64,000 bases of DNA from Fibrobacter sp. (GCA_017530965.1 JAFXLS010000095.1:1-64000), one strand, 5' to 3'; positions 41,619-64,000 are shown, counted from the first letter of the stretch. A program made the numbers and translations. Notes: generated by a model not told the origin, from the sequence alone.

Positions 41619-43277
41619 ATGTTCTATTTAGGAAAAAAATATTGGACCGTTGCCACATTGTTTGTGTTGGCTTTTTGTGGTTGCGAATCTACGGATATTA
41701 CGACTTTGATTGAAATGGAAAACGCCAATAAGCCTATGGAGGTGAAGTCGGTACAGGATATATCTTACCTGGATGATTGTGATGGTTCGCAGGAAGGGCA
41801 AATCGTATATGTAAAGACCGATGACAATTTGGTTGTATGCAGCAATGGAGACTGGGTTAAATCCGACAGTTCCGTATTGCGGACCTCTGTTCCGACAAAA
41901 GACTCTGTTGTAAATCCCTCGGAACCTTCTAAAAATGAAACGGGACTAAAATCTAGTTGCCCGGTTAACAAGCGCTCTTCTTCAAATTTCTGCTTTGACG
42001 TGGTTATTCGAGATTTCCAGGCGAATCATCCTGACTTCGAAAATTTCGTAGAAGAATATGCCGGTGTTACCGGAAAAGGTGAAATCAAGAGGGATGCTAT
42101 TTATGCGTCGGGTTATTCCGGATATGATGGATTATGGTATAGTAATGACTATTATCACCTGACTTGCGGAAACAAGACTACTCTTGCAGGAATGGCTATC
42201 GGTACGGATGGACTGCCTCTATTTGCGAATCCTTATTTGCCCGCGTATCTTCAGCAAGTTTCTACTCAGCCCTCTTTGACTTATGGGGAATGTGAAGAGG
42301 GTGGTCGTATTCGGAGAGGCTTCTACAATAATTACATAAGCAACCCGGATATGTTGGCGAAGTCTTGTCTGTCTTCCAGGATGTCTTGGTCGGACGAAGT
42401 GTACTATACACCTGGCATGGTTGCATATGGCTTGTCTTTTGTTCCGAACAATGATGGTGAATATGACATGCTGGAGGGTGCCCGAATTGCAAAAGCGGCG
42501 GAACTCTGCGATAACCAGTATTTTGATCAGTGGTTCACGGATGTTGCCGGCGTTAATAAACGGTCCAATACGACGCTTAATCTTGAACGTGTCGATGGCG
42601 AATTAGGCAACTTTGTTGTCGATTACGATTACAACAATGGCGGTTTCTTCCCGTTGGATTCCATTGATCCTGTTTCGGATATGTGGGTTTCCTCAAAGTC
42701 TTGTGAGGGTTGCGATCAGTATGGGCCTCAGAGTCTTTCTATTTACTGTCCTCCATACAATTATGAGTATGCATCGACTCAAAGCGACCGTTTTGGCTAT
42801 AATACCCGAGATCTTTGCTCTAGCTGGCTTTCATTTGGCGGCCCCCGTGCTGTCGAATCGGATTTCGGTTATAGCGCTGCATGGAATGCCGCTGCCGCTG
42901 CAGGAAATCTGGGCCTTCGGCATTTGCGCAATTATCATTTTACGGTACAGGCTTATGCTCAGTTTGTGTATAAGGCTGAAGATGAAGGCTATCTGCAATT
43001 CATGTCTATTGATGACATGTGGGTCTATGTGGATGGTGTACTCGTTCATGATGGCGGTGGTGACCACCAGCCGGTTCCGTCTCCGCAGATTAGCCTGAAT
43101 AAGCTGGCGGAAAACAATCACGGTTGCCATGATGGGGAACCTCTTAAGTCGAAGATGACTGATGAAGGCGCGTGTAATGAATACACATGGGTCGATGGAT
43201 CCGTTCATCGCATCTGGGTTTTCTATGCAAACCGTCAAACAGATGGCTCTACGTTCTTTATTCGTGCAAAAATCTAG
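41619..43277 (+). CDS. Fibro-slime domain lipoprotein
   Basis: A 552-residue protein with a lipobox-like signal (LAFCGC). After a Ser/Thr-rich spacer, CFDVVIRDFQANHPDFENF (near residue 125) begins the fibro-slime (TIGR02148) domain; its hallmark C-terminal part is HFTVQAYAQFVYKAED, then SIDDMWVYVDGVLVHDGGG and GSVHRIWVFYANRQTDGSTFFI. The latter is a PA14-like beta-sandwich that often binds carbohydrate. Fibro-slime proteins were found associated with cellulose-grown Fibrobacter and are suspected in adhesion. Many Cys residues (CEGCDQYG, CPPYNYEY) suggest disulfides. Confidence 0.92.
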   Translation: MFYLGKKYWTVATLFVLAFCGCESTDITTLIEMENANKPMEVKSVQDISYLDDCDGSQEGQIVYVKTDDNLVVCSNGDWVKSDSSVLRTSVPTKDSVVNPSEPSKNETGLKSSCPVNKRSSSNFCFDVVIRDFQANHPDFENFVEEYAGVTGKGEIKRDAIYASGYSGYDGLWYSNDYYHLTCGNKTTLAGMAIGTDGLPLFANPYLPAYLQQVSTQPSLTYGECEEGGRIRRGFYNNYISNPDMLAKSCLSSRMSWSDEVYYTPGMVAYGLSFVPNNDGEYDMLEGARIAKAAELCDNQYFDQWFTDVAGVNKRSNTTLNLERVDGELGNFVVDYDYNNGGFFPLDSIDPVSDMWVSSKSCEGCDQYGPQSLSIYCPPYNYEYASTQSDRFGYNTRDLCSSWLSFGGPRAVESDFGYSAAWNAAAAAGNLGLRHLRNYHFTVQAYAQFVYKAEDEGYLQFMSIDDMWVYVDGVLVHDGGGDHQPVPSPQISLNKLAENNHGCHDGEPLKSKMTDEGACNEYTWVDGSVHRIWVFYANRQTDGSTFFIRAKI

Positions 43278-43322: not shown

Positions 43323-43721
43323 ATGCTTAAGAAGTTATTGATTGTCTTGTTTGCCTTTGCTGTTTTCGCCGTGGCAGATCCTATATCTATCGAAGGCCGC
43401 TTGACCGAGATTCCGGGCAAGATGCCGAGCAACGACCTGTATAGCTACGTGTACGTGTTCAAGTACAAGGTGCTCAAGGTGGAATTTGGCAAATTGGATG
43501 CCAAGGATGTGCTGGTGGGGGTCTACAACCCGCTGATCGCTCGCGGCAAGGTGAAAGACAAGATGGCGGACAAGTCCAAGGGCAATGTGGGCGAGTTCAA
43601 GGCCAAGGCCAAGCATAAGCTTAAACTGGTGCCACTCGAAGGCAACTGGGATGGCGCTGTGGAAGACGAGTACTTTGACGACGAGTCTCCGCGTTACTTG
43701 GCTATCGAAGTGAACGAGTAG
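43323..43721 (+). CDS. Small exported protein, unknown function
   Basis: A 132-residue protein with a signal peptide (ends FAVFAVA-DP). The mature part is Lys-rich and beta-like (SIEGRLTEIPGKMPSNDLYSYVYVFKYKVLKVEFG). No family is recognised. AGGGAG lies 6 bases before the ATG. Its stop is 3 bases from the GTG start of the MBOAT gene, so the two are probably co-transcribed, and it may be an accessory to surface polymer acylation. That link is inferred from position only. Confidence 0.75.
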   Translation: MLKKLLIVLFAFAVFAVADPISIEGRLTEIPGKMPSNDLYSYVYVFKYKVLKVEFGKLDAKDVLVGVYNPLIARGKVKDKMADKSKGNVGEFKAKAKHKLKLVPLEGNWDGAVEDEYFDDESPRYLAIEVNE

Positions 43722-43724
43722 TTC

Positions 43725-45143
43725 GTGGTTTTTTCTTCTCAGCTGTTTTTGTTCTACTTCTTGCCGACTTTCTTGGTCGGCTATTTCGTGCTGTATAAGT
43801 TGCACGCGAAGCATTCGTTGTTGAATTTTTTCATCACGGTTTTCAGCTACATTTTTTACGGTTGGCTTGAACCGTGGCTTGTTTTCTTGATGTTCAGCTG
43901 CACCCTGGTGGTGTATGTGGCGGGCCGCTTTATTTCGGCTTCTGGAGCATCTAAATTACAGAGAAATTTGGCGCTGGGGATTGCCGTTGCGGTGAATCTT
44001 GGAGCCTTGGGCTTCTTTAAGTATTACATGTTTGGCATGGGGGTGCTGAACGATGTGGTTACGAAGCTTGGCTGTGAGCCTTTCTCGGTGATGACGGTGC
44101 TTTTGCCGGTGGGTATTTCGTTCTATTCGTTCCAGTCCATGAGTTATGCCATTGATGTGTGGCGTGGAACGGCTCCTCCGGTAAAGGATTTTGCCACTTT
44201 TGCTTGTTACGTGGCGCTTTTCCCGCAGTTGGTAGCGGGACCCATTGTTCGCTACAATACGGTGGCCGAGGAACTGGCGACCCGTGAGCATACGCTTGAA
44301 AATTTTGTGCGAGGCATGGTATTTTTCTGCTTCGGCTTTGCCGAAAAGATTTTCCTTGCGAACCAGGTGGGGATTATTGCAGACCGTGTGTTTGCCGCCG
44401 ACGCTCCTGGCGTGCTCAACAGTTGGTGGGGCGCCTTGGCGTACATGTTCCAGATTTACTTTGACTTTTCGGCGTATTCCAATATGGCCATTGGTCTTGG
44501 CCTTATGCTTGGGTTCCATTTCCCGCGTAACTTCAATGGCCCTTACCGTTCCAAGAGCATTACGGAATTCTGGAAACGCTGGCATATTTCGCTAACGAGC
44601 TGGTTCCGCGATTACCTCTATATTCCCATGGGTGGAAACCGCGTAGGTACGGCGCGCCTGTATTTTAACCTGTTCATGGTGATGTTCGTGAGCGGCGTTT
44701 GGCACGGGGCTAACTGGACTTTCGTGTGCTGGGGCCTGTACCATGCCTTCTTCATGATTCTGGAACGGGCAAACAACAAGCAGGCGCTTTACTACAAGTT
44801 GCCTCTGGTTGTGCAGCTTATGATTACCCAGGTGATAGTGCTCTTTGGTTGGGTGCTGTTCCGCGCCGACAATATCGGTGAAGCATGGCGTATGTGGAAG
44901 TGCATGCTGGGAATGAATGCGGTGAGCTCCGCCGATGCGATTCTATCGGCTGAAATCTTTACGCCTAGTTGCCTGTTCTTTATGGCGCTGGCCTTTATGC
45001 TTTCGTTCTGGCGATTCCGCAGTTATGACTGGTGCGACAAGGTGTCTCCCTACCGAGTGGCGGTTGCCTTTGTCATCTTTGTGGTGGCTGTCCTTGCGCT
45101 GTTTACCCAGAGCTATAATCCGTTCCTTTATTTCCAATTCTAA
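43725..45143 (+). CDS. MBOAT-family O-acyltransferase
   Basis: A 472-residue polytopic membrane enzyme of the AlgI/DltB type. The first codon is GTG (MVFSSQLFLFYFLPTFLVGYF). Family signatures include VGISFYSFQSMSYAIDV, LFPQLVAGPIVRY, FDFSAYSNMAIGLGLMLGF, the FWKRWHISLTSWFRDYLYIPMGG stretch and SGVWHGANWTF with the catalytic His. These enzymes move acetyl groups across the membrane for O-acetylation of exported polysaccharides, with AlgX/AlgJ-like SGNH partners. Such a partner (52748) lies 7.6 kb away. Confidence 0.93.
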   Translation: MVFSSQLFLFYFLPTFLVGYFVLYKLHAKHSLLNFFITVFSYIFYGWLEPWLVFLMFSCTLVVYVAGRFISASGASKLQRNLALGIAVAVNLGALGFFKYYMFGMGVLNDVVTKLGCEPFSVMTVLLPVGISFYSFQSMSYAIDVWRGTAPPVKDFATFACYVALFPQLVAGPIVRYNTVAEELATREHTLENFVRGMVFFCFGFAEKIFLANQVGIIADRVFAADAPGVLNSWWGALAYMFQIYFDFSAYSNMAIGLGLMLGFHFPRNFNGPYRSKSITEFWKRWHISLTSWFRDYLYIPMGGNRVGTARLYFNLFMVMFVSGVWHGANWTFVCWGLYHAFFMILERANNKQALYYKLPLVVQLMITQVIVLFGWVLFRADNIGEAWRMWKCMLGMNAVSSADAILSAEIFTPSCLFFMALAFMLSFWRFRSYDWCDKVSPYRVAVAFVIFVVAVLALFTQSYNPFLYFQF

Positions 45144-45230: not shown

Positions 45231-46055
45231 ATGAATTATTTATTTCGTTCTTTGCTGACTTTGTGTGCATGCTCGTTTATTTGCCTGACGGGCTGCGATG
45301 TTCCATTTTCCAAGGAAGACCCGGTGGTGGTCTCGGTGGGAGAGTCTAAGCTTCGCGAATCCGAAGTTTACCGTCTTGTCCCTGAATGGGATTACATGAC
45401 GGATCGTGAAAAGCTGACTTTCTTGGAACATTGGATTGATGAAGAAACCATTTACCAGGAAGCCATTGCCAAGGGCTTCTGGAAGGATCCTGCCTTGCAG
45501 GAACAGATTAAGCGTACTGAACGCAAGATAACGGTGGATTTTTATTTGCAGACCTTTGCCGATACCATGATGGTCGGTGACGCCGAAAAGCTGGATTATT
45601 ATCATGCCCATCCGGAATTTTTCGTGCGCGGCCGCAACTTGGTGACGGGTGCAATCCTCTACTTTAAGGATTGGCAGATGGCTGACATGTATTACAAGAG
45701 CCATAAGAAGTTGACCTATGAAACTTACCCGGCTGCCAACTGGATGGTGAAACGTATTGAAACCTTTGATACGGTTTCGGTTAGCCCCGACAGTTGCATG
45801 ATTCCGTCTCTTGCAGACGCTGAACTGGGAACGCTTTCGACCATCAAGGTTTGCGGTGGTGCAATCAAGATGGCTGTGGTGGTGTCTAGGCTTGACTCCG
45901 CCGATGTGCTGCCCTATGCCGAGGTTGCCGAAGATGTGGCTGCCCGCGCTTGGGTAGAACACCAGAAGACGGTTCTTTCTCGCCTTAAGAAGGAATGGAA
46001 AAAGGCCCGCCCGATTTTCTCGCAGATGAATGTTTTTAGTGAAAAGGAAAAGTAA
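45231..46055 (+). CDS. PrsA/SurA-like foldase lipoprotein
   Basis: A 274-residue protein with lipobox LTGC (Cys22). Residues 30-125 resemble the SurA/PrsA N-terminal chaperone core (VVSVGESKLRESEVYRL, DREKLTFLEHWIDEETIYQEAIAKGF). The C-terminal half is helical and lacks a clear parvulin active-site motif, so I read it as a chaperone-like relative rather than a proven isomerase. Its TAA overlaps the ATG of the two-domain foldase (TAATG), a tight operon. Confidence 0.78.
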   Translation: MNYLFRSLLTLCACSFICLTGCDVPFSKEDPVVVSVGESKLRESEVYRLVPEWDYMTDREKLTFLEHWIDEETIYQEAIAKGFWKDPALQEQIKRTERKITVDFYLQTFADTMMVGDAEKLDYYHAHPEFFVRGRNLVTGAILYFKDWQMADMYYKSHKKLTYETYPAANWMVKRIETFDTVSVSPDSCMIPSLADAELGTLSTIKVCGGAIKMAVVVSRLDSADVLPYAEVAEDVAARAWVEHQKTVLSRLKKEWKKARPIFSQMNVFSEKEK

Positions 46056-47344
46056 TGAAGTTTCCTGGTCGTTTGGTTTTTGCTTTGTGCATTCTCGGGA
46101 TATCTTTTGCCGAGGCTGAACCAGCATTGATGGAAGGAATTGCTGCGGTTGTTGACGGTAAACCGATTATGCGTTCGGAGTATTTGAATAGCCTGTATCG
46201 CTTTCAAGAAACTCCCGAAGGAAACGCCATGTCGGAAGCGGATCAGCGCAAGTATGTGCTGGACCAGTTGATTGAGGAAAAGGTCCTGCTCAGCCGTATT
46301 GACCGCGATTCCATCGTGATTACCGATACCGAAGTGGATCAGCGCGTGAACGCCCACTTGTCTCAGCTTGCTGCAAGCCAGAATACGGATTTGGCGACTC
46401 TTGAAAAGGCTATTCGTGCTCAGCTTGGCATTAGCATGGCTCAATACCGCGACCAGCTGTCTAAGCAGATTCGTGGTCACATTGAAATGGCCCGCGTACG
46501 CCAGCGACATGTTGGTTCGATTACGCCCACCAAAAAAGAGGTGGATGCCTTTTTTGCGAATTACAAGGATTCGATTCCGCAGCAGTTCAACTGCGTTCTG
46601 TTGAGCCATATTCAATTGCCCATTTTGCCTGATTCCATGATTGTGGATTCAGTGAAGCGCATTGCCGATGCCTTGATTGATACGCTTAACCTGGGCATGA
46701 GCTTTGAACTGTTGGCCAAGGCCCATTCGCAGGATACTTCTGCTGCCAAGGGCGGTGACCTGGGTTATTTCAAGCGCGGCCAGTTGGATCCGGCTTTTGA
46801 ACGTGCTCTGGACGCCTTGAAGAACGGTCAGTACTCTTCGAACCCGGTGAAGACGAAGCTGGGATGGCACATTGCCCGTGTGCTTGGTCGTAAAGAAGAT
46901 GGTGTTCGTTCTGCCCAGATTTTGCTCCGTACGATTCCGACCGCAAAGGATACCGCTGCTGTGATAGCTCTTGCGGATTCTCTTCAGAAGAACATCAAGT
47001 CTACGGAAGCCTTTGCTGCCGCCGCGAGAAAGTATAGCGAAGACAAGTCCAGCAACTTTGCCGGTGGCCGCCTCGGTTGGTTCCAACGTAATGAAATGGA
47101 ACCGGCTTATGTGGAACCTGTTGCGAATTTGAATGTAGGCGAAATTTCGGAACCGGTTTTGATTGATGGCGCTTACCACTTGTTCCGTCTGGATGATTCT
47201 CGCCAGACCCGCGATTTGAATTTGGAAGAGGATTACGGTAAGATTGAACAGATGGCTGCAACCCATCTTGAAAATCAGAAACTTGAAGCGCTGGTGAAAA
47301 AGTGGCGCGAAGAAGTGCATATCGAAATCCGCATGACGGAATAA
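46055..47344 (+). CDS. SurA-type periplasmic peptidyl-prolyl isomerase
   Basis: A 429-residue exported foldase. Signal peptide ends SFA-EA; a SurA N-terminal domain (IAAVVDGKPIMRSEYLNSLYRFQET, LDQLIEEKVLLSRIDRDSI) is followed by two parvulin domains (about 175-275 with AHSQDTSAAKGGDLGYFKRGQLDPAFERAL, and 285-390 with YSEDKSSNFAGGRLGWFQRNEMEPAY). Such proteins carry unfolded outer-membrane proteins across the periplasm. The start overlaps the upstream foldase stop. The product likely serves the many barrel proteins of this region. Confidence 0.9.
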   Translation: MKFPGRLVFALCILGISFAEAEPALMEGIAAVVDGKPIMRSEYLNSLYRFQETPEGNAMSEADQRKYVLDQLIEEKVLLSRIDRDSIVITDTEVDQRVNAHLSQLAASQNTDLATLEKAIRAQLGISMAQYRDQLSKQIRGHIEMARVRQRHVGSITPTKKEVDAFFANYKDSIPQQFNCVLLSHIQLPILPDSMIVDSVKRIADALIDTLNLGMSFELLAKAHSQDTSAAKGGDLGYFKRGQLDPAFERALDALKNGQYSSNPVKTKLGWHIARVLGRKEDGVRSAQILLRTIPTAKDTAAVIALADSLQKNIKSTEAFAAAARKYSEDKSSNFAGGRLGWFQRNEMEPAYVEPVANLNVGEISEPVLIDGAYHLFRLDDSRQTRDLNLEEDYGKIEQMAATHLENQKLEALVKKWREEVHIEIRMTE

Positions 47345-52747: not shown

Positions 52748-54721
52748 ATGAAATTGGATTCCCGCTCTAAAAAATCTTTAGTTAAAGTTTCTTTGGCGAT
52801 GTTGATGTCGTCACTCTTGGTGGCAGGACTTTCTTCATGCGCCTCGAATAAGCCGGATGCAAATTCGCCCGCGACCGAAAACGTGTCTGCGGAACGCCCG
52901 GCGGCACTCCCGCCTCAGCCTTCGACGCCTGTGACGGTGTTCGAGATGCGTTTTATCAATGCAGATAAGCAAGTGCGTGTGGTCAATAAGCCCACTCTTG
53001 CGGCGCTTGATTTCGCGGCGTATTTCAATAACCCGATTCGTTTGGCGGGCAAAGAAGAGAAACCCGAAAATTATACGGGCAAAATGGCATCGGCAAAGCT
53101 TGCGGATTATCCGTTCCCGATGCTGGATTCCCTTTCGGAATACGAACCTGCCGCTGTTGCGGGCCGCCAGCCTTTGGCATGGGAACCGCTTGCGAAGATT
53201 CTTTATGCTCAGACTGGAAACGATTCCCTTTCGCAGGTGTTGAATGCCGTTGAAGCGGTGAAGTGGGATGAACCCGATGTGTTCAGAGCCTTCCAGACGG
53301 TAACCCGTATGTGGGGTGTTCCCCTGAGCGATGGTTCGGTAGACTGGTGGGTCGAAGTGATGCCCGCCATGTGGACGGAACGTTCTGTGTTCTACGGAAA
53401 ACTGAAGCTGTCTTCGAAGGGTGAAACCGCAGAAATCCTGAATTATTACTTGACCGGCGAAATGAACATTGACGATGTCATGAACTGGGCTCGTACTTTG
53501 TCGTCTTACTGGTATCCGACTTTGAATACCGACTTGGAACCGCATACGGCCGGAGCCCCGTGGGAAGGTGACAAGAATAGGCCTTTTGCCGTGATGCGCG
53601 GAAACCCGATGGGAACTCCTATGTGGATTGCCTTTGAAGTACCTGCATTCCGCATGAATGATGAAGCCTTGCGCGCCAAGCGTACCGCGGATTCTTTGGC
53701 AGAGGCGGGCGAGGTGGTTCCGGTGAATCGTATACTTGATACGAATTCCGCATTCAGGCTTGAAACGCTTGCTTCGCTCGAAGGTTCCTGCCCTGAAAAT
53801 GCAGCGACGAAAAAGTTTCGTGATGCGCTCTCGAAAAAGCTTAAAAATCTGCCTAAGGAACAGAACGCTTGGGCTGGTGGCGACATGCTTTGGTTTAGAC
53901 GCAACGCTAACTACCTGCTTGCAGATAAAATAACCGGTCAGGATAGCTTGCATAATCCGCTCCCGCGCCTGCTGGAACTCAAAAAGTATCTGGATTCTCT
54001 GAATGTGCAACTTTTGGTGGTGCCGGTTCCTGTGAAAGAAGAAATTTATGGCGAACGCTTGGTCGAAGGCACCGCTGCGGACCTTTGCGTGAACCCCGCC
54101 GGTCGTGAATTTACCCGCGAAATGCTTGCGGCAGGGCTCGATGTGCTTGACCTTTACCCGGCCCTGATGGCGGCCAAGTCAGGGGATGAACCTCCTCATT
54201 ACAGCTACCAGCGTTACGATACTCATTGGGCTTTGCCCGGCATGATTGCGGCCATGGAATTGCTGGCTTCTCGCGTGACGCAGTACTCTTGGTACGCCGA
54301 ATCGGGCGCACAGCCAGGTTCCTTGAATCTTCAGGAAACTAAGACGCTTAGAGAAGGTGATTTGGTGGCTCATTTGCCCGATGCCGAAAAGTCCAAGTAT
54401 CCGGCAGATACCTTGCCGGTTATGAAGGTCTTCAAGGGCACCGAAGCTTATAAGGGTGGCAAGAATTCGCCGATTCTTCTGATGGGAGATTCCTTTACGG
54501 GCGTATTTGAATCCGTCGATCAAAAGAGCGGCGGCCCGGGCTCGCTTTTGGCTTATGCGACAGGGCTCGATGTACAGGTGCTTACCAGCTGGGGTGGCGG
54601 CCCGGGCGTGTACCACCGCATGATGAAAATGAAGAAGGACATGCAGAGCAAACGCCTCGTAATCTACATGATGACTGCTCGTGACTTCTGGCAATCTCCC
54701 ATGGAATGGGACGGTCTTTAG
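52748..54721 (+). CDS. AlgX/AlgJ-like SGNH lipoprotein
   Basis: A 657-residue protein with a lipobox (LSSC). The N-terminal half (residues 40-360) is an unrecognised envelope region with a predicted spacer. The C-terminal half resembles AlgX/AlgJ acetyl-transfer domains: an LLVVPVPVKEEIYG strand, YDTHWALPGM with the His (about residue 490) and LLMGDSFTGVF with the Ser near residue 579 as in SGNH hydrolases, ending in an ARDFWQSP motif. Homologues O-acetylate exopolysaccharide using MBOAT-supplied acetyl groups. It heads the five-gene operon ending at 62424. Confidence 0.8.
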   Translation: MKLDSRSKKSLVKVSLAMLMSSLLVAGLSSCASNKPDANSPATENVSAERPAALPPQPSTPVTVFEMRFINADKQVRVVNKPTLAALDFAAYFNNPIRLAGKEEKPENYTGKMASAKLADYPFPMLDSLSEYEPAAVAGRQPLAWEPLAKILYAQTGNDSLSQVLNAVEAVKWDEPDVFRAFQTVTRMWGVPLSDGSVDWWVEVMPAMWTERSVFYGKLKLSSKGETAEILNYYLTGEMNIDDVMNWARTLSSYWYPTLNTDLEPHTAGAPWEGDKNRPFAVMRGNPMGTPMWIAFEVPAFRMNDEALRAKRTADSLAEAGEVVPVNRILDTNSAFRLETLASLEGSCPENAATKKFRDALSKKLKNLPKEQNAWAGGDMLWFRRNANYLLADKITGQDSLHNPLPRLLELKKYLDSLNVQLLVVPVPVKEEIYGERLVEGTAADLCVNPAGREFTREMLAAGLDVLDLYPALMAAKSGDEPPHYSYQRYDTHWALPGMIAAMELLASRVTQYSWYAESGAQPGSLNLQETKTLREGDLVAHLPDAEKSKYPADTLPVMKVFKGTEAYKGGKNSPILLMGDSFTGVFESVDQKSGGPGSLLAYATGLDVQVLTSWGGGPGVYHRMMKMKKDMQSKRLVIYMMTARDFWQSPMEWDGL

Positions 54722-54726
54722 TCTCT

Positions 54727-55470
54727 ATGCTTGCTCGTCTTTCTGCTCTCGCTAAGCGATTCTTTTGGCCGATGCTGATTGTTGTTTTTGCAGCATCATT
54801 GGCGTTGGTGCTTTGGAGCGGACAAACTGAGAGAATGAGCTTTAGAGATGCAGCCTGTTCTTTTGAAGACAAGTTGCCCGGTTGCTTGGATGCTGTTTCG
54901 GAGTGGAATAGTGGCCTTGCTTTTTACGACAGTGCTTTGAAGGCAACCGGTGATACGTTGCAGAGCTTGAAAGCGTTGCTTTGGGAATACTGGAATTTGA
55001 AATTTGCCGGAGCGGGGGAGCCTGCGGTGGCGCAAAATTCCATATTGCCTTTGCGCGTTCTTGAAACCCGAAAATCCGGTTGCATGGGCCTTTCGTGGCT
55101 TGCCATGATGGTGGCAGAATCTAGGCAGATACCCCTTGCGGTTATCATGCTGCCGGGTCATGTGTTCTTGCGTTATGGGGACTCTGCGAATAGCGTGAAT
55201 TTGGAACCCAATCGAGAGGGCTATTCTTACACCGATGGCGAATATCGAGAAAAGTATAAAAAAGGCCCTTGGACGGGTCTTGAATTTAAGCCTTTGACCC
55301 CCACTCAATTTGTGGGACTAGCCGCCTTTAACATGGGTAATTTATATTTGGATAGTGATTTGCGCCGGGCTTTAACCTGGTACCGTATGGCCGAGGAATT
55401 TTTTTCGGAATATCCGGGCATTAAGGCGAATCAGGAAATTGCCAAAAGCCGCCTACCAGACCATTTGTAG
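54727..55470 (+). CDS. Transglutaminase-like (SirB1/core2-type) membrane-anchored protein
   Basis: A 247-residue protein with an N-terminal membrane anchor (KRFFWPMLIVVFAASLALVLWSG). It contains SGCMGLSWLAMMVAESRQIP with the Cys, LPGHVFLRYG with the His and NLEPNREG as acidic partner, the arrangement of transglutaminase-core proteins, plus a TPR-like tail (GLAAFNMGNLYLDSDLRRALTWYRM). It follows the SGNH lipoprotein by 5 bases; an upstream start at 54706 overlapping that gene is possible. The substrate is unknown; the family includes proteases and isopeptide-forming enzymes of the envelope. Confidence 0.78.
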   Translation: MLARLSALAKRFFWPMLIVVFAASLALVLWSGQTERMSFRDAACSFEDKLPGCLDAVSEWNSGLAFYDSALKATGDTLQSLKALLWEYWNLKFAGAGEPAVAQNSILPLRVLETRKSGCMGLSWLAMMVAESRQIPLAVIMLPGHVFLRYGDSANSVNLEPNREGYSYTDGEYREKYKKGPWTGLEFKPLTPTQFVGLAAFNMGNLYLDSDLRRALTWYRMAEEFFSEYPGIKANQEIAKSRLPDHL

Positions 55471-55505
55471 GCAGGCTTAGTGGCTGAATTTGCTATTTTT
55501 AGTAA

Positions 55506-58247
55506 ATGCGGCTATTTATTTATATTGCAGTTGTTTTGTTGCTTTGCGCCTGCTCTAATTCGGAGGGTGTTCCTGCTTCTCCGCAAAGTTCGCCGGTTGA
55601 TGTCGTTGACGATTCCCTTGCGGGAATGGTACGTGTCAATTCGATAGATGCAATAGCTGTTTTAGGAACCACGGACAATGATGCTCGTGCTAATGAACAG
55701 CCTGAAATGAAGGTGAAATTCAGTTATGATTTCTCTATTGGTCAGCATGAGGTGACTTGTGGGGAATTTGATTCCCTGATGAAATCGGCTTTCGGATTGG
55801 TTCTGAATTGTGCAAACGACCAATTTCCGGCTACAAATGTGACCTACTACGATGCTGTTCTGTATGCAAATGAACGCAGCAAGGCCGAAGGTTTTGATAC
55901 GGCCTATACCTATACTTCCGCAGATTTTGACTTTGAAAAGCACTGCACTAATCTAGAAGGCTTTGCATATCGCTCCGAGGCGAAGGCCTATCGTTTGCCG
56001 ACTGAGGCGGAGTGGGTTCTTGTTTCCAGTCAAAATTGGAATAATCGAAATGGATGGAATGCTGAAAATTCGGATTACAAACTGCATCCGGTTTGCAGCA
56101 AGCTGAATGCCGACGATAAATTTTGCGATCTGATTGGCAATGCCATGGAGTGGATGAATGACTGGCTTGGTGATTTCCGCGATACGACTCTAGAAAATTA
56201 TGTGGGTGCTCCCGATGGGGGAGCACTAGGCCAGCGTATTGTGAAGGGAGGTAGCTACCGCAATACGGCTGAATCTATCAAATGGTATAGTCGAGGCGAT
56301 ATTTATACGGTTACTTCATCTACCCGAGCCGATTATGTAGGCTTCCGCTTGGCATTCGGTGCCATTCCCGAGGCCGTATGGATGGGAAACGACGGTCGTG
56401 CGAATGATTCTCGAATAGTTTCGTTGGTGAATTCTGCGACAATTCGTTCTCTTGTTGGCACATACAAGGCGAAACTCGCTTTTAGAAACGACCTTTCTGG
56501 GAATCTTGCCTACGTCGATTACTCTGGCGGAATTCTTTCTGTTGTGGAAATTGTTGATACGATTGAAGTGTTCCATCCGGAGATATCTCCTGATGGCAGG
56601 CGTGTGGCTTTCTGTACGGGACTTGAAGGAGTGTCGGGTTCATCTTCTCTCTATGTTCGTGACTTGAATGCTGAAGGCTCAAATCTCGTGAAGCTCAATG
56701 TGGAAAGTGCCGTAATTCCCCGCTGGCGAGTTCTTGAAAACGGCGATACGGTAATAGTCTATGTGACTGATGCTGGTAACAACAAGGATGAATCCTCTTT
56801 CAAGTCGGCTTCAACCTGGCAGGTGAAATTCGCAAATGGCAAGTTTGACGTTCCTCAAAAACTTTTTGACGGGGCTTATCACGGCGGTATCAGCGAAGAC
56901 AATGCTCTGGCTATTACGGGGGCTCGCCTCCTTCGTGCCCGCGTTTCAGGGCGTGATACGGTATGGTACGATGGTGAACAAGCCTGCAATGCATCCCTTT
57001 CAAAAGATGGCAGTGAACGAATACTGTTCCTTGATTTCGGTGGAAAGACGGGACAAGCCTTTGTCGGGACAAACTATGGTACTCACGAACGCTTGTTGGT
57101 TACAGACAGCAGTGGAAAATTGATACAGTCCGTGGGGGCTCCAACCGGTTTTTCTTTTGACCATAGCGAATGGGCTAAGGCGTCTGGCAATCTTGTGGTT
57201 GCGACTTTGACGAATTCGAATGGCGCCCATCAGAAAATTGTACTTGTAAATCTTGCCGATAGTTCGATTGTTGCTCTTATTGAAGGTGATGAACTCTGGC
57301 ATCCCTGTCTTTGGGCGGCAGAAAATTCTTTTGTCAACGATGATACTTCGCTAGATCTGGATAGCGCCGGAATTTATTTTAATAATTTGGGTGGAGAAGC
57401 GGCAATAGTTCTTCGCTACAAAATGGAACTCTTGTGGGATTATAGGGATTCTGCTAATGTCGTGGTGGTAGGGTCGTCGCGGCCGCTTAATGGCATCAAC
57501 CCCATGGAACTGGGTGAGCCTTTTTTTGCGATAAATCTTTCTAATATCCCCAATATGATGGTTACTTCTGAATACCTGTTGCTGAATTATGTGTTCCCTC
57601 ACGTAAAAAATTTAAAATACGTAGTTGTTTCTCTTGATATTGATTTGTGGTACCATAGTGAATCGGAAAGCTATAACGTTTTCTATCAGGAATATCTGAA
57701 TTATCCTGGCTATGTTTATGACATGAATCATAACTATTGGAAATATGGTTTTCCTGAACAATTAAGCCGCTTGACTAAAGAGTCCCTTGGGGCGGAGTAT
57801 TATCAGAATCTTCTGGTAAAATCTCGCGGCAGTGTCTACGAAGAGTCGAATTCGTGGGAGGATAATCCTTCTTTGGATAATGACAGTACATGGAGAGATG
57901 AGCTTTTTTATAATTACGAAGCGAGTTTAAACCACTTGAAAAATATATTACGTGAATCGGAAAGAACCGGTGTCTATGTAATTGGAATTGTATTCCCACA
58001 GAGTCCGAATTTTAAGAAAACAGGTTCGTTCGGAAGATATGGTATTCGAAGAAGTGAAGCCCCTGCGTTGTTGGATAATCTGAAAAAACTTGAAAAAGAA
58101 TATCCTCATTTTGTTTTCTGGGATGAAAACAAAATGGGCTCGCATGATTATAAGGATGAAATGGCTATGAATAGGGATCATTTGAGTGTCCTTGGTGCAT
58201 CGAAGCTGACATCACGCCTGGATTCCCTTTTGAGGACGTTGAAATGA
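55506..58247 (+). CDS. TIGR02171-family lipoprotein, first copy
   Basis: A 913-residue lipoprotein (lipobox LLLCAC). Residues about 50-290 are an FGE-sulfatase-type (SUMF1-like) domain: YDFSIGQHEVTCGEFDSLM, RLPTEAEWVLV, GNAMEWMNDWLG, GGSYRN and GFRLA. Residues about 300-610 read as TolB-like propeller blades (HPEISPDGRRVAFCTG, VIPRWRVLENGDT). The last 270 residues look SGNH-like: VVVVGSSRPLNGI near 654 and NRDHLSVLGASKL near 890. This is the Fibrobacter paralogous family I know as TIGR02171, of unknown function. Its stop overlaps the next start (ATGA). Confidence 0.9.
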   Translation: MRLFIYIAVVLLLCACSNSEGVPASPQSSPVDVVDDSLAGMVRVNSIDAIAVLGTTDNDARANEQPEMKVKFSYDFSIGQHEVTCGEFDSLMKSAFGLVLNCANDQFPATNVTYYDAVLYANERSKAEGFDTAYTYTSADFDFEKHCTNLEGFAYRSEAKAYRLPTEAEWVLVSSQNWNNRNGWNAENSDYKLHPVCSKLNADDKFCDLIGNAMEWMNDWLGDFRDTTLENYVGAPDGGALGQRIVKGGSYRNTAESIKWYSRGDIYTVTSSTRADYVGFRLAFGAIPEAVWMGNDGRANDSRIVSLVNSATIRSLVGTYKAKLAFRNDLSGNLAYVDYSGGILSVVEIVDTIEVFHPEISPDGRRVAFCTGLEGVSGSSSLYVRDLNAEGSNLVKLNVESAVIPRWRVLENGDTVIVYVTDAGNNKDESSFKSASTWQVKFANGKFDVPQKLFDGAYHGGISEDNALAITGARLLRARVSGRDTVWYDGEQACNASLSKDGSERILFLDFGGKTGQAFVGTNYGTHERLLVTDSSGKLIQSVGAPTGFSFDHSEWAKASGNLVVATLTNSNGAHQKIVLVNLADSSIVALIEGDELWHPCLWAAENSFVNDDTSLDLDSAGIYFNNLGGEAAIVLRYKMELLWDYRDSANVVVVGSSRPLNGINPMELGEPFFAINLSNIPNMMVTSEYLLLNYVFPHVKNLKYVVVSLDIDLWYHSESESYNVFYQEYLNYPGYVYDMNHNYWKYGFPEQLSRLTKESLGAEYYQNLLVKSRGSVYEESNSWEDNPSLDNDSTWRDELFYNYEASLNHLKNILRESERTGVYVIGIVFPQSPNFKKTGSFGRYGIRRSEAPALLDNLKKLEKEYPHFVFWDENKMGSHDYKDEMAMNRDHLSVLGASKLTSRLDSLLRTLK

Positions 58248-60958
58248 TGAAATTGTTTTTCGTTTTGCTTGTTTTTTGGCTTTGTTCCTGTTCGAATTCG
58301 GACTCGGTCTCTGTATATCCGCAAAACACATCTTTGGAAATCGCAGAAGATTCCCTTGTTGGGATGTTCCGCGTCAGGACCGCCGAATCTGTTGCCATCT
58401 TGGGAACGGACTTGGAAAAGGCGAAGGCCAATGAAACACCTGCGATGGAGGTGAAATTTGATTATGATTTTTCAATTGGCAAGCATGAGGTTACATGTGG
58501 CGAATTTAATTCTCTGATGAAGCCTTTGACGGGGCATTCACTGGACTGTGAGGGCGATAGTCTCCCTGCCACAAATTTGACATACTATGATGCGGTTCTT
58601 TATGCGAACGAACGCAGCAAAGCCGAAGGTTTCGATACGGCCTATACCTATATTTCGGTGAGTTTCGACACGGAAAAGCATTGCACAAATTTGGCTGGGC
58701 TTGTCTTTCGTCCCGAGGTAAATGCGTATCGTTTGCCGACTGAAGCGGAGTGGAATCTGGTGGCTGCTTCGAACTGGAAAAAAGGTTGGACGGCCGATAA
58801 TGCAAAACAAAAATTGCATAATGTTTGTAGCCGCGATACGGCTGCAAGAATCTGTGACATGGTCGGAAATGCGATGGAATGGGTGAACGATTGGCTCGGA
58901 AACTTACGCGATACGACTATCGTAAATTATGTGGGGGCTCCCGATGGCGGAGCCTTGGGACAACGCGTGGTAAAGGGCGGTAGTTATCGTAATGCCTCTA
59001 AATCCATCAACATCTATAGCCGTGGTGACGTGTATACGGTCACGTCTTCGACCAGGGCTGATTATGTCGGGTTTCGTCTTGCTTATGGGGCTATTCCCAA
59101 TCCCATTTGGATGAATGCGAAAGGAACTGCGGCAACAAGCCGTATCCTTCCTTTGGCGACTCCAGCGACAATGCGTTCTTTGACGGGAACCTACAAGGTA
59201 AAACTGGCGTTTCGTAATGACTTGACGGGGAACCTCGCTTTTATCAATTATGGCAGTGGTTCTTTGTCGGTTATTGAAATTGAGGATTCCCTTGCTGTTT
59301 ACCATCCTGAAATTTCTCCGGATGGACAGTGGGTTGCCTTCTGTACAAAACTTGAAGGCGTATCTGGAACATCGACGGTCTTTGTGCGTCGCTTGAATGC
59401 GGATGGTTCCGATTTAGTAAAGTTGAATGTCGAAAGTGCTGTAATTCCCCGTTGGCAGGTTCTTGAAAATGGCGATACGGTTGTCGTTTATGTGACTGAT
59501 GCGGGGAATAATAAAAACGATGCTTCTTTTAAGGCCTCATCGACTTGGCAAGTGAAATTTGCAAATGGCAAGTTTGGAACTCCGCAGAAGCTTTTCGACG
59601 GGGCCTATCATGGGGGCTTTAGCGAAGACCGTTCCTTGGCCGTGACGGGAGCGCGTCTGCTTCGTGCCCGCGTTTTGGGGCGTGATACGGTATGGTACGG
59701 CGGCGAACAGGCCTGCAATGCGTCCCTTTCGAAAGACGGTTCAAAGCGCACCCTGTTCCTTGATTTTGGCGGAACGACCGGTCAAAAGTTTGTTGGTGAA
59801 AAATATGGGACGCATGAACAGTTGCTGATTGCTGATTCTCTTGGAAAACTAATACAGTCAATACCTGCTCCGGCGGGCTATTCCTTTGACCATAGCGAAT
59901 GGGTCTTTGGATCGGATAATCTTGTGGTGGCGACGCTTTCGAATGATGATGGGGCCCATACGAAAATAGTGTCGGTCAATTTGCAGGACAGTTCTATTGT
60001 TGATATCCTTGAAGGCGATGAAGTTTGGCATCCGAGTCTATGGGCCAATCCCAATGTGATTCCGTCGAATGAATTCTTGCTTGATTTGGACAGTGCGGGA
60101 ATGTATTTCATTGAAGGTGGATCTGATAGGTCAAAGATTTTGCGGTACCGCATGGAAATGATGTGGAAGTACAGGGATTCTGCAGAACTGGTGGTGCTTG
60201 GATCTTCGCGTGCGGCAAATGGAATAGATGCTTCTATAATTGGAGTGACCTCGGTTAATTTGTCTTATTTCCCGAACTCCTTCTTTGATGTATGTCATAT
60301 GTATGAACGTTATGTTGAAAAAGGTTTCAAGAAATTAAAATATATCGTTGTCTCGATTGATATTGATTTTTGGAATTTTTCACCTCAGTTTAGTTTCTTC
60401 AGCTCGGAATACGAACAATTCCCGGGATACGTTTACGACCAAAATCATAATTATTGGTTAGATGAAGATTGTAGTGCAATTTACGCAGCTACGCAAAATG
60501 CCCCTGGCCTAGATACGTATAAAGGAATGTTTCTAGGTCTAAGAAGTTCCGAATTTGCAACTTCCCAGGGATGGGGCGTATCTGAATATGAAGATAGCAC
60601 TTGGATGGACAAACAGAGGGCTGCTTATGAAGAAACTTACGTTGCCTTCGTGGATTTTTTGAAAGTTACTCAGCAAAAGGGGTTGACCGTAGTAGGGATT
60701 GTTTTCCCGCAATCTCCGGCTTATCGCAATTCGGGCATCTGGGGGCGACATGGCTTGCGTCGTAGTGAGGCGGTCGAAATCCTAGACAGTCTGGCAAGAT
60801 TGCAAAAGAAATATCCCCATTTCATTTTTATGGATGAAAATAAAATGGGATACCACGATTATGATGACTCCATGGCTCAGGATTGTGATCACATGAATGC
60901 ACGCGGTGCAGAACAGCTGACGGTTCGTTTGGATTCGTTGATTAAAACTTTGAAATGA
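58244..60958 (+). CDS. TIGR02171-family lipoprotein, second copy
   Basis: A 904-residue paralogue of the preceding protein over its full length, with the same order: lipobox (LCSC), FGE-like domain (YDFSIGKHEVTCGEFNSLM, RLPTEAEWNLV, GNAMEWVNDWLG, GGSYRN), propeller segment, and C-terminal VVLGSSRAANGID with DCDHMNARGAEQLT. The FGE and propeller parts are close to the first copy; the SGNH-like parts differ more. The ATG overlaps the upstream stop, and its own stop overlaps the membrane protein start. The pair may act on different substrates or as a heterodimer. Confidence 0.9.
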   Translation: MMKLFFVLLVFWLCSCSNSDSVSVYPQNTSLEIAEDSLVGMFRVRTAESVAILGTDLEKAKANETPAMEVKFDYDFSIGKHEVTCGEFNSLMKPLTGHSLDCEGDSLPATNLTYYDAVLYANERSKAEGFDTAYTYISVSFDTEKHCTNLAGLVFRPEVNAYRLPTEAEWNLVAASNWKKGWTADNAKQKLHNVCSRDTAARICDMVGNAMEWVNDWLGNLRDTTIVNYVGAPDGGALGQRVVKGGSYRNASKSINIYSRGDVYTVTSSTRADYVGFRLAYGAIPNPIWMNAKGTAATSRILPLATPATMRSLTGTYKVKLAFRNDLTGNLAFINYGSGSLSVIEIEDSLAVYHPEISPDGQWVAFCTKLEGVSGTSTVFVRRLNADGSDLVKLNVESAVIPRWQVLENGDTVVVYVTDAGNNKNDASFKASSTWQVKFANGKFGTPQKLFDGAYHGGFSEDRSLAVTGARLLRARVLGRDTVWYGGEQACNASLSKDGSKRTLFLDFGGTTGQKFVGEKYGTHEQLLIADSLGKLIQSIPAPAGYSFDHSEWVFGSDNLVVATLSNDDGAHTKIVSVNLQDSSIVDILEGDEVWHPSLWANPNVIPSNEFLLDLDSAGMYFIEGGSDRSKILRYRMEMMWKYRDSAELVVLGSSRAANGIDASIIGVTSVNLSYFPNSFFDVCHMYERYVEKGFKKLKYIVVSIDIDFWNFSPQFSFFSSEYEQFPGYVYDQNHNYWLDEDCSAIYAATQNAPGLDTYKGMFLGLRSSEFATSQGWGVSEYEDSTWMDKQRAAYEETYVAFVDFLKVTQQKGLTVVGIVFPQSPAYRNSGIWGRHGLRRSEAVEILDSLARLQKKYPHFIFMDENKMGYHDYDDSMAQDCDHMNARGAEQLTVRLDSLIKTLK

Positions 60959-62424
60959 TAATAGCGGTTTTTGTCATCCTGTTCGCGATTTTCCCGCTGA
61001 CCGATACCGATATCTGGTGGCATTTGGCGTGTGCTCGCGAGTGGGTGATTACGTGGACGCCTGTCCGTGCGCCCGTTGTGAATGTGCATGAATATTTTCA
61101 GCTAGTTGTAGGCTTTGTCTATGGCTTGGGTGGAACTCCACTTTTGGTGGCTTTCAAGGCGGTGTTGTGGGGCGTGGTCTTCGCACTGTTTGGATGTGGG
61201 AGAAGTCATGGTGCCCCCCCTAAGAACGTCATTGCTAGCCCCGCAGGAGGGCCTGCCACGAGCGTAGCGTGGTGGTGGCAATCTTTAGTAGTCGTATTTG
61301 TCCTTTTTGTTTTCCGTTACCATTTCGAAATGCGCCCGGTGCTTTTTTCGCTTCTGTTTCTTGGAATATACTGGAATGCGATTCCGTGGCTTGTAAAAAA
61401 ATACAGAGAGTCCCGGCTAGATGTAAAACAGGTTGCATGCGCTGCGCTGATTCTTGCTCTTCAGTGGTTTTGGTGCAAGTGTCAGGGGCTTTATATCTTG
61501 GGCCCGATTTTTGCAACTTTGGTGTTGTGCGTCAGTTTACTTGAATCAAAAAAACAGGGCCGATTTTCCGCAAAATACATTGTTCCGCAAGTTGTTTTTG
61601 TTCTACTCCTCTGGGCAATGCCGTTCTTGCATCGCGAAGGTTTGGCTTTGTTCCTGTATCCGTTTGGGTTGCTGGATCGCCTGCTTGGCCTTACTCTTTC
61701 TGCCGCGGTATTTGCAAGTCAAATTTCCGAGAACCGTTCTCCTATAACGCTTTTAATGGCGGGGGAGAATATACTGGAAAGCGTGCTGATGGTTTTGCTC
61801 TGCATGGCAGGAATTTTTGTGAGTATAAAAAGAATCTTTAGAAGTGTTGTTCCGAATGGGGCTCTTTTTGTGACAGCGATTCTCGCCCTTGTTGCCGAAC
61901 GTAACTTTGTGCTGTTCTTGCCGGTACTTTTAGCGACTTTGCCTAATTTCCCATTTCACACTCCACATTTCACATCGTGCCGCCTACTGTCTACGGTCTA
62001 CTTTCTACTTACTTTCTTCATCTTGGGTCTTTGGACCCGCTCACTTTCCGCTTACGATTTTTCGATGGTTGCTTATCAGCGTGTTCCCGTAGATGCTGCC
62101 CGATGGATGCAGGAACATCCGCACCAGGGACGGCTCTTCAATGATGACCGTGCGGGCGGTTACCTTGCCTTTGTAAATCCTGCCGATTCTATTTATATCG
62201 ACGGACGATTTATCTTAAAGACGGCGGATTTCTTTGAATGGTATCTGAATTACGCCAAGGATCCCGCCTTGTTTATGCATGACGCCGATTCTTTAGGCAT
62301 CGACCGTGCCTTATTCCCGTTGCTGTATTACGCCCGCTGGGATGAACTAATGTTTGCCCTTAATCAAGATTCCCGTTGGCACCAGGTTTACCGCGACAAA
62401 TACTTCGCCGTGTTCGATAAATAA
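60955..62424 (+). CDS. Polytopic membrane protein with embedded repeats
   Basis: A 489-residue protein with about ten hydrophobic helices and a periplasmic C-terminal domain of about 110 residues (WMQEHPHQGRLFNDDRAGGYLAFVNPADSIYIDGRFI). The start TDTDIWWHLACAREWV resembles GT-C-type glycosyltransferase-like membrane proteins whose Asp motif sits in the first loop, so a lipid-linked-sugar transferase is possible but unproven. It overlaps the upstream stop (ATGA). Two repeat elements are translated inside it (61228-61283 and 61950-62020). It is the last gene of the operon. Confidence 0.78.
   Translation: MIIAVFVILFAIFPLTDTDIWWHLACAREWVITWTPVRAPVVNVHEYFQLVVGFVYGLGGTPLLVAFKAVLWGVVFALFGCGRSHGAPPKNVIASPAGGPATSVAWWWQSLVVVFVLFVFRYHFEMRPVLFSLLFLGIYWNAIPWLVKKYRESRLDVKQVACAALILALQWFWCKCQGLYILGPIFATLVLCVSLLESKKQGRFSAKYIVPQVVFVLLLWAMPFLHREGLALFLYPFGLLDRLLGLTLSAAVFASQISENRSPITLLMAGENILESVLMVLLCMAGIFVSIKRIFRSVVPNGALFVTAILALVAERNFVLFLPVLLATLPNFPFHTPHFTSCRLLSTVYFLLTFFILGLWTRSLSAYDFSMVAYQRVPVDAARWMQEHPHQGRLFNDDRAGGYLAFVNPADSIYIDGRFILKTADFFEWYLNYAKDPALFMHDADSLGIDRALFPLLYYARWDELMFALNQDSRWHQVYRDKYFAVFDK
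61228..61283 (+). repeat. 56-nt palindromic repeat inside the membrane protein gene
   Basis: Begins GTCATTGCTAGCCCC and ends GGCAATC, with ATTGC/GCAAT arms and two inner hairpins, GCAGG-AGGG-CCTGC and CCACG-AGCGTAG-CGTGG. It is read as VIASPAGG...VAWWWQS, in the same frame (GTC as Val) as the copy in the lipoprotein gene at 34124. Confidence 0.82.
61950..62020 (+). repeat. Heptameric repeats inside the membrane protein gene
   Basis: Two heptamer types in sequence: TTTCACA/CTCCACA units (61953-61978) and CTACTGT, CTACGGT, CTACTTT, CTACTTA units (61984-62011). They are translated as PFHTPHFTSCRLLSTVYFLL at the edge of a membrane helix. Confidence 0.75.
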
Positions 62425-62458
62425 TAAAAAAGGTCCGACCCGTAGGTCGGACCCCTTT
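62425..62458. terminator. Strong bidirectional terminator between the operon and the GH5 gene
   Basis: A perfect 9-bp stem GGTCCGACC-CGTA-GGTCGGACC (62432-62453) with an A run before it and a T-rich tract after it, so it can end both convergent transcripts. Confidence 0.92.
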
Positions 62459-62489: not shown

Positions 62490-63830
62490 CTACTTGATCT
62501 TGAATGCACGAACCATATTGGTTGCGTTTCCGTGAACTCGTGCAAAGTACTTGCCTGCAGGGAGCTTGGTGAGCGAAAGCGTGCCGTTCACGTTATCTAT
62601 TGCCATAAGCTTGTCTCCCTTCAAACTGAAGATTTCGACAGTCATAGGAGAGCCTGCGATGTGTAAGGCGTTGTCTGAGAAGGTTACGTTGGAATTCTGC
62701 TCGGCCTTTACAAAAATTGGGGTGTCGTTGCCGCCGTTCGGGCATTTGGTGTAGCTAGTGGGGTTGGTGGCGAGGTAACCTTTTACGAGGTTGCCGGAGG
62801 TCGTGTACTGGAGCGAAGTCTTGGTTGAAGAACCTTCAAATGCGGCGGTACCTTCGCTGATTTTGGAGGCAGACCAGTTTGCCCAAGAAAGCTTGTGCTT
62901 GTTGATGTATTCCTGCCAACTCTGGTTACGGCTCTGGTCCGGATTTCCGCCACCGCTAGCATCAGCCGTGCCCCATTCCGAAACAAATACGGAAAGGCCT
63001 GCGTTAATTGCTTGTTCGCCGTTGGAGCCTTCGCAGGATCCGCCCCAGTCGTAGGTGCCGCTCCAGCAGTGGCTATTGGCGTAGTAGTGCAAGGTGTAAG
63101 CGGTATTCTTCTTGGGGTCGTTGACTTCGTTTCCGATTGCTGCTTGCGGGTTCTGATCCCACTTGGGGGTTCCCACGAGAATCAGGTTGTCGGAATATTC
63201 GCGGATGACTGGAATGACTTGGTCGGCGTAGGTTTTAATGTCGCTCCAAGAAATATCTTCGGGTTCGTTGAACAGTTCGAAAATGACGTGGTCGTATTTG
63301 CCGTAGGTCTGAGCCATTTCTTTGAAGAAATTCTTGGCAGCATCCGTTTGTTGTGTGGCTTTATGAGAATGCCAGTCGATAATCACGTAAATGTCGTTCT
63401 TGATGGCGGCTTCGACGACCGTTTTCATGAATTGCTTTTGGTTGGTTGGGTCGACTGCATAACCTTTGAGCTGGATTCCGTTGTATTCACCGGACCAGTT
63501 TTCGTCTCCGGTTGCCATGGCTGCGCGCACAATCTGGATGTTCATGTCGCGAACCATGGTGGAAACGCCTTCTTCGCTCCAGAATTCAACAGCCTGCGGC
63601 ATCAGGCTCCAGTAAAGGCTCATGCCACGCACCTGCACTTCGGCGCCGTCCTTGACGCCTTCGCAGCTGCCGTAAATGCGGCCCTGTCCCTGCGAGTTTT
63701 TGCCTGTCATTAGCTGCCCGTATTGGCTAACAGGACCCACGCGGGTGGGGGTGATGTTTTGGGCGAGGGCAAAGGAACTGCCCAGAGCTATTGCAGACAA
63801 AAGTGCGATTTTTGATAAATGTTTCATCAT
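62490..63830 (-). CDS. Glycoside hydrolase family 5 endoglucanase
   Basis: A 446-residue secreted cellulase. Signal peptide MMKHLSKIALLSAIALGSSFALA. The catalytic barrel shows the acid/base Glu189 in FELFNEPED and the nucleophile Glu285 in VFVSEWGTAD, with RGMSLYWS, VIIDWHSH and HYYANSH strands, close to GH5 subfamily 2. Residues about 375-446 are a beta-rich C-terminal module (MTVEIFSLKGDKL, LPAGKYFARVHG) resembling a type IX secretion sorting domain. I start it at ATG 63830, 6 bases after AGGG; an ATG at 63836 would sit on the ribosome binding site. The 164 bases beyond it hold only its AT-rich leader and nothing else I can name. Confidence 0.94.
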   Translation of the reverse strand: MMKHLSKIALLSAIALGSSFALAQNITPTRVGPVSQYGQLMTGKNSQGQGRIYGSCEGVKDGAEVQVRGMSLYWSLMPQAVEFWSEEGVSTMVRDMNIQIVRAAMATGDENWSGEYNGIQLKGYAVDPTNQKQFMKTVVEAAIKNDIYVIIDWHSHKATQQTDAAKNFFKEMAQTYGKYDHVIFELFNEPEDISWSDIKTYADQVIPVIREYSDNLILVGTPKWDQNPQAAIGNEVNDPKKNTAYTLHYYANSHCWSGTYDWGGSCEGSNGEQAINAGLSVFVSEWGTADASGGGNPDQSRNQSWQEYINKHKLSWANWSASKISEGTAAFEGSSTKTSLQYTTSGNLVKGYLATNPTSYTKCPNGGNDTPIFVKAEQNSNVTFSDNALHIAGSPMTVEIFSLKGDKLMAIDNVNGTLSLTKLPAGKYFARVHGNATNMVRAFKIK

Positions 63831-64000
63831 GAACATCCCTTTTTTTATTGAAAATAGGTTTTCTGCGCCAAAAATGGAAAAAAAAGAACTTCTTTTTTGT
63901 TTACATGTGTGTAATTTGTGAGCGTAATCAAGTTTTTGGGGCTTTGGGTGCCGTTTTTAGGCGGTTTTTGGGGTGGAAATTACTAGATTGCTGGGCATGA

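Follow-up and report, generated by a model that had tools for sequence, protein, structure and literature searches.

Relationship to described systems

The closest described counterparts of the gene set analyzed here are the alginate AlgI-AlgJ-AlgX(-AlgF) system, the PatA-PatB and DltB-DltX-DltD systems, and the Arn pathway (ArnA-ArnC-ArnT), which modifies lipid A. With the alginate system our set shares an MBOAT protein, a membrane-anchored SGNH protein and an AlgX-type SGNH protein, the permuted D-x-H...S triads of the latter two (D174/H176/S269 in AlgX and D190/H192/S288 in AlgJ; PMC4148444), and the adjacency of the genes, which in our set is seen in its more distant members. Unlike that system, it has about 390 extra N-terminal residues in the AlgX-type protein and adds GT-C, transglutaminase-like, propeller and TIGR02171 parts, and no alginate polymerase or export genes (Alg8, Alg44, AlgK, AlgE) were noticed in the flanks of the loci examined. 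In PatA the acyl group is borne by the tyrosine of an FXYXXF motif (PMC12148441); this C-terminal MBOAT tyrosine is common to PatA-PatB, DltB-DltX-DltD and our set, and the candidate SGNH domain of our TIGR02171 proteins is weakly DltD-like. Those systems have one SGNH acceptor, whereas ours has several putative acceptors of two types, and we identified no DltX microprotein; the small protein encoded next to our MBOAT gene is a secreted one, for which Pfam gives no match. Finally, our set resembles the Arn pathway in its putative UDP-keto-pentose/xylose synthase, putative polyprenyl-phosphate-sugar GT2 and predicted GT-C transferase, but no ArnB or formyltransferase part was seen, and the likeness of our GT-C protein to ArnT is one of fold only.

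In the herbivore gut, Fibrobacter is a principal degrader of cellulose and must make contact with its substrate. To our knowledge, its surface glycans and their synthesis are hardly known at the gene level. Literature searches (TIGR02171; Fibrobacter with MBOAT; Fibrobacter with AlgX) returned no description of the set, nor is it discussed in the accessible portions of the papers on the genome, transcriptome and proteome of S85.

A five-gene operon in Fibrobacter

The window, which is the whole 64,000-nucleotide stretch of a Fibrobacter sp. contig (JAFXLS010000095.1:1-64000), contains five long co-directional open reading frames in 52748-62424, followed by a stem-loop:

52748-54721 (+), A, AlgX-type SGNH lipoprotein of 657 amino acids (PF16822 ALGX, 3.6e-18)
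54706-55470 (+), or starting at 54727, T, membrane-anchored transglutaminase-like protein (PF13369 Transglut_core2, 2.1e-9)
55506-58247 (+), F1, TIGR02171 lipoprotein of 913 amino acids (1319 bits)
58244-60958 (+), F2, TIGR02171 lipoprotein of 904 amino acids, 61% identical to F1 (1240 bits)
60955-62424 (+), M, GT-C-fold glycosyltransferase-like membrane protein of 489 amino acids (AlphaFold2 and Foldseek)
62432-62453, stem-loop, probable (bidirectional) terminator between M and a convergent cellulase gene (folding energy)

The preliminary description of this region had given spacings of 5 and 35 bases and overlaps of 4, and these match the coordinates above: T and F1 are 35 bases apart, F1-F2 and F2-M each overlap by 4 bases, and the A-T gap is 5 bases if T starts at the ATG at 54727. 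The block is real and forms one operon, as had been claimed; its reading frames are confirmed, and its order and tight gaps recur across the genus. In the Fibrobacter loci examined, one to six F genes stand between T and M (A-T-F(n)-M), and the median gaps across the genus are 6 (A-T), 35 (T-F), 1.5 (F-F) and 0 (F-M) bases, 91-98% of them being 100 bases or less; no scattered order was found inside the genus. The stem-loop is also real (dG -17.9 kcal/mol, z = -3.2). Its T-run suits the minus strand, that of the convergent cellulase gene, better than the plus strand, so that an operon ending at this single terminator is plausible rather than proven. Sigma-70-type promoter matches in the region show no excess (13, against 12.9 in shuffles). 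The convergent gene (62490-63836, minus strand) encodes a GH5 cellulase (7e-53) and sits between M and the propeller gene described below.

In a sister genus (G144 and relatives) the order is A-T-M-F-F, and therefore the tandem lipoproteins are an insertion into, or beside, an A-T-M core. The ancestral core lacked TIGR02171 genes between T and M, and these are a lineage-specific tandem expansion put into it. A Fibrobacter-type F-F-M arrangement also occurs on a contig titled Bacteroidales (Tb.RUG.44; locus L173), which is probably a binning error.

The wider operon in Fibrobacterota

Elsewhere in the phylum the genes are found, whole or in part, in the order [UDP-pentose synthase-GT2-epimerase]-s-MBOAT-SGNH2-A-T-M-propeller. 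Besides A, T and M, three of these parts lie partly or wholly in our window:

43323-43721 (+), s, small secreted protein of 132 amino acids, directly upstream of the MBOAT gene (open reading frame; no Pfam family matched)
43725-45143 (+), B, MBOAT O-acyltransferase, AlgI/DltB/PatA-like (PF03062, 3.9e-22; DltB structures, 2.3e-26)
63973-64000 in the window and to 65202 on the contig (+), G, TolB-like PD40 propeller of 409 amino acids

MBOAT-SGNH2-A-T-M-G is contiguous in loci L092, L097 and L104, and most of it is present in L093, L095, L105, L106, L111 and L114; the arrangement is s-B-S-A-T-M-G in L097 and L104 (S being SGNH2), B-S-A-T-M-G-...-F in L092, and s-B-S-A with G in L095 and L111. 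The MBOAT gene adjoins that of SGNH2 in all of these loci and is preceded by an s homologue in all except L092, and EPI1-GT2-EPI2, of which EPI2 is the epimerase-like member, lies immediately upstream in L095, L104, L106 and L111. Within Fibrobacter the MBOAT and SGNH2 genes are unlinked and stand outside the A-T-F-M operon. In the present genome the s-MBOAT pair (43323-45143) is in the same window as A-T-F-F-M, an overlapping EPI1-GT2 gene pair is on contig C5, and SGNH2 is on contig C129. The five genes are thus not a complete system, as they had been taken to be; that count missed the MBOAT gene with s and the propeller gene at 63973, as well as the unlinked SGNH2 and polyprenyl-phosphate-sugar transferase. 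We also rejected an operon exclusive to the genus Fibrobacter, since at least eight Fibrobacterota families carry the core.

Directly upstream of s-MBOAT in the window is a gene for a fibro-slime domain protein (41619-43277, plus strand; TIGR02148, 45.4 bits against a cut-off of 45); in F. succinogenes such proteins have been connected with adhesion to cellulose. The MBOAT gene is followed by two genes for peptidyl-prolyl isomerases of the SurA/PpiC type (45231-47344, plus strand), the first only weakly so by family.

Co-inheritance of seven families

We scored A, T, M, SGNH2, MBOAT, G and GT2 in 168 Fibrobacterota genomes from search tables transcribed by hand, with cut-offs placed where the matches showed an evident gap (A <1e-50 and, in addition, one split copy; SGNH2 <1e-30; MBOAT <1e-100; G <1e-29; GT2 <1e-40; F, counted separately, <1e-100; for T and M the listed matches were taken, minus G019 for T). 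All seven families are present in 87 of the 168 genomes and none in 63. Genome incompleteness is not the cause of this pattern, because it persists in the 77 genomes that are at least 95% complete (all seven in 53, none in 19). At the genus level every pair tested is associated, with p from 5e-12 to 6e-6 (Fisher; counted before GT2 was added); these values are descriptive and not probabilities in the strict sense, because the genomes are not independent. Presence and absence both occur within the same families (for example g14 versus g15; g18, g22 and g27 versus g19, g21 and g28). This distribution points to a unit that was lost or gained repeatedly. Fibrobacter genomes without the set retain an MBOAT paralogue (about 1e-53), and what they lack is therefore this particular MBOAT. 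Of the 103 genomes in which four or more core families are present, 94 encode full-length TIGR02171 proteins, as do 5 of the 65 others; these five have F without most of the set, nine genomes have the set without F, and F is therefore accessory.

The putative acyl-transfer proteins and T

The C-terminus of the MBOAT protein reads FLYFQF, an instance of the FXYXXF acyl-shuttle motif, which like H327 is invariant in 13 homologues; H287 is invariant as well. Both A and SGNH2 carry D-T-H-W and G-D-S in the AlgX/AlgJ arrangement; the triad of A (D491/H493/S582) is invariant, and that of SGNH2 (D337/H339/S427) is invariant or nearly so. SGNH2 matches the AlgJ structure 4o8v (7.6e-10) and also AlgX. 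A search of PDB sequences with A gave no match; this protein opens with the lipobox LSSC, and Pfam gives no match to its N-terminal part of roughly 390 residues. In T, C126, H152 and E167 are invariant, so that the third triad position is Glu, versus the Asp of a Cys-His-Asp triad.

The TIGR02171 lipoproteins

F1 and F2 are full-length members of TIGR02171, an NCBIfam family without an assigned function, to which domain anatomy and genomic partners are added here; they cover profile positions 4-912 and 5-912, respectively, of 912, with scores far above the cut-off of 544 bits. The lipobox of F1 is LCAC, and C16 is invariant among the F proteins. An AlphaFold2 model (mean pLDDT 89.6) divides the protein into an FGE-like domain (about residues 40-285), a TolB-like propeller (about 290-605) and an alpha/beta domain (about 622-913). 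The first of these matches FGE-sulfatase (PF03781) at about 1e-24 in both F1 and F2, and its closest structure is Treponema TvpA, followed by FGE (Foldseek/structure comparison). At the position of the first active-site cysteine of FGE, 58 F proteins have the consensus KGGSYRN. With the catalytic cysteine absent, we rejected the reading of F as formylglycine-generating enzymes, and ligand recognition is therefore the likely role of this domain.

In the model the C-terminal third alternates between strands and helices, and it has an invariant G-x-S (G35/S37) and D-H-L (D270/H271). Its matches to DltD, DUF1574, SGNH and GDSL families are sub-threshold; no Pfam cut-off was reached, and a profile search of PDB sequences gave no related match. 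Of the three SGNH-like modules originally proposed, that of A is certain, and the evidence for those of F1 and F2 is indirect.

M and the putative lipid-linked sugar genes

M has no Pfam or NCBIfam match, and because a PDB sequence search gave nothing it was identified through structure prediction. Foldseek with its AlphaFold2 model (mean pLDDT 90.8) gave twelve PDB matches at E<=0.001, all of them GT-C transferases or complexes containing one; DPY19, STT3, AglB, ArnT and PglB are each matched with probability 1.00. In the first extracytoplasmic loop D19, W22 and H23 are invariant and D17 nearly so. By its predicted fold, then, M is a GT-C glycosyltransferase, which refines its earlier designation as a polytopic membrane protein. 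EPI1 resembles ArnA-type UDP-4-keto-pentose/UDP-xylose synthases, scoring 319 and 307 bits in two distant members (cut-off 294); the EPI1 of the window's own genome reaches 240 bits, below that cut-off. GT2 is AglJ/PpgS/ArnC-like, of the polyprenyl-phosphate-sugar type, its ArnC match being weak. Four tandem proteins remotely like M (GT-C-like) are encoded on a delta-proteobacterial metagenome contig (L191).

Proposed function and alternatives

The order of the genes and their co-inheritance, the folds, the intactness of the catalytic residues and the shuttle motif are all computed results; from them we infer a set of reactions, with their donors, acceptors and topology, in which T, G and s would also have roles. 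We consider it somewhat more probable than not that the set is an extracytoplasmic glycan-decoration machine of Fibrobacterota, of which the five genes are the main surviving block in this genome. EPI1 and GT2 would load a sugar, probably a pentose, onto polyprenyl phosphate, and M would transfer this sugar to an acceptor beyond the inner membrane. With acyl-CoA as the donor, the MBOAT protein would move an acyl group, most likely acetyl, to the tyrosine of its own FLYFQF and hand it to the AlgJ-like SGNH2, anchored in the inner membrane, to the AlgX-like A and to the C-terminal domains of the F proteins, which would then O-acylate a polymer en route to, or at, the outer membrane. The F proteins, tandemly multiplied in Fibrobacteraceae, may recognise different acceptors, with the FGE-like domain and the propeller as the parts that bind them. 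On this proposal the transfer of a lipid-linked sugar by EPI1, GT2 and M and the MBOAT-SGNH acyl transfer by B, SGNH2, A and F would each finish on the outer side of the inner membrane, and the simplest joint function would be one surface polymer that receives both sugar and O-acyl groups. No polymerase or acceptor gene could be tied to the set. Modification of a surface polymer or glycan, suggested in the preliminary description, stands as the best reading of one conserved operon, without the specificity to Fibrobacter attached to it there.

An unlikely but substantial alternative is that M is an oligosaccharyl- or C-mannosyl-type enzyme acting on secreted, for example cellulose-binding, proteins, and that the acyltransferases decorate the resulting glycan. 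Foldseek places DPY19, STT3 and AglB above ArnT for M, GT2 resembles the AglJ of archaeal N-glycosylation, and a reference on succinogenes given in PMC6851124 is a further point in its favour; but TM-scores of 0.4-0.55 do not separate the GT-C subfamilies, a lone polyprenyl-phosphate-sugar synthase is a better fit to the transfer of single sugars than to an oligosaccharyltransferase, and no Wzx/flippase or glycan-assembly cluster was seen beside the genes. Less probable still is a pair of independent machines, in which MBOAT-AlgJ/AlgX acylation would be separate from a T-F-M-G scaffold whose TIGR02171 proteins act like GldK/PorK of type IX secretion. The FGE-like domains of F do match PorK/GldK structures, the propellers are TolB-like, and F copies are more numerous than any other part. 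The best FGE-like match is nevertheless TvpA and not PorK, and in distant families A, T and M stand in one operon with MBOAT and SGNH2, with losses that take all of them at once. The same strict linkage and co-inheritance with an FXYXXF MBOAT and a GT-C enzyme makes it very improbable that the SGNH proteins are esterases whose role is to deacetylate plant xylan or the cell's own polymers. The rumen plant-cell-wall setting, the adjoining GH5 cellulase and the frequency of esterases among SGNH folds would suit such hydrolases; A and SGNH2, however, are of the AlgX/AlgJ transferase type, and phylum members from bog, fen and sediment also carry the set.

It is conceivable, though we hold it doubtful, that the set belongs to a kind of envelope machinery not described before, its GT2 and GT-C sugar transfer obligately coupled to MBOAT-SGNH acylation, with the diversifying FGE-propeller-SGNH lipoproteins of TIGR02171 as interchangeable outer-membrane acyltransferases that choose the acceptor. 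The set suggests a role for this highly duplicated family without an assigned function, and seven families that are kept or lost together, with a fold for a previously unnamed membrane protein, make up a testable pathway. Close relatives within the genus that lack the whole set (G065, G073, G074, G085, G087, G106, G107, G109, G114, G115, G124 and G127, among others) provide a natural comparison.
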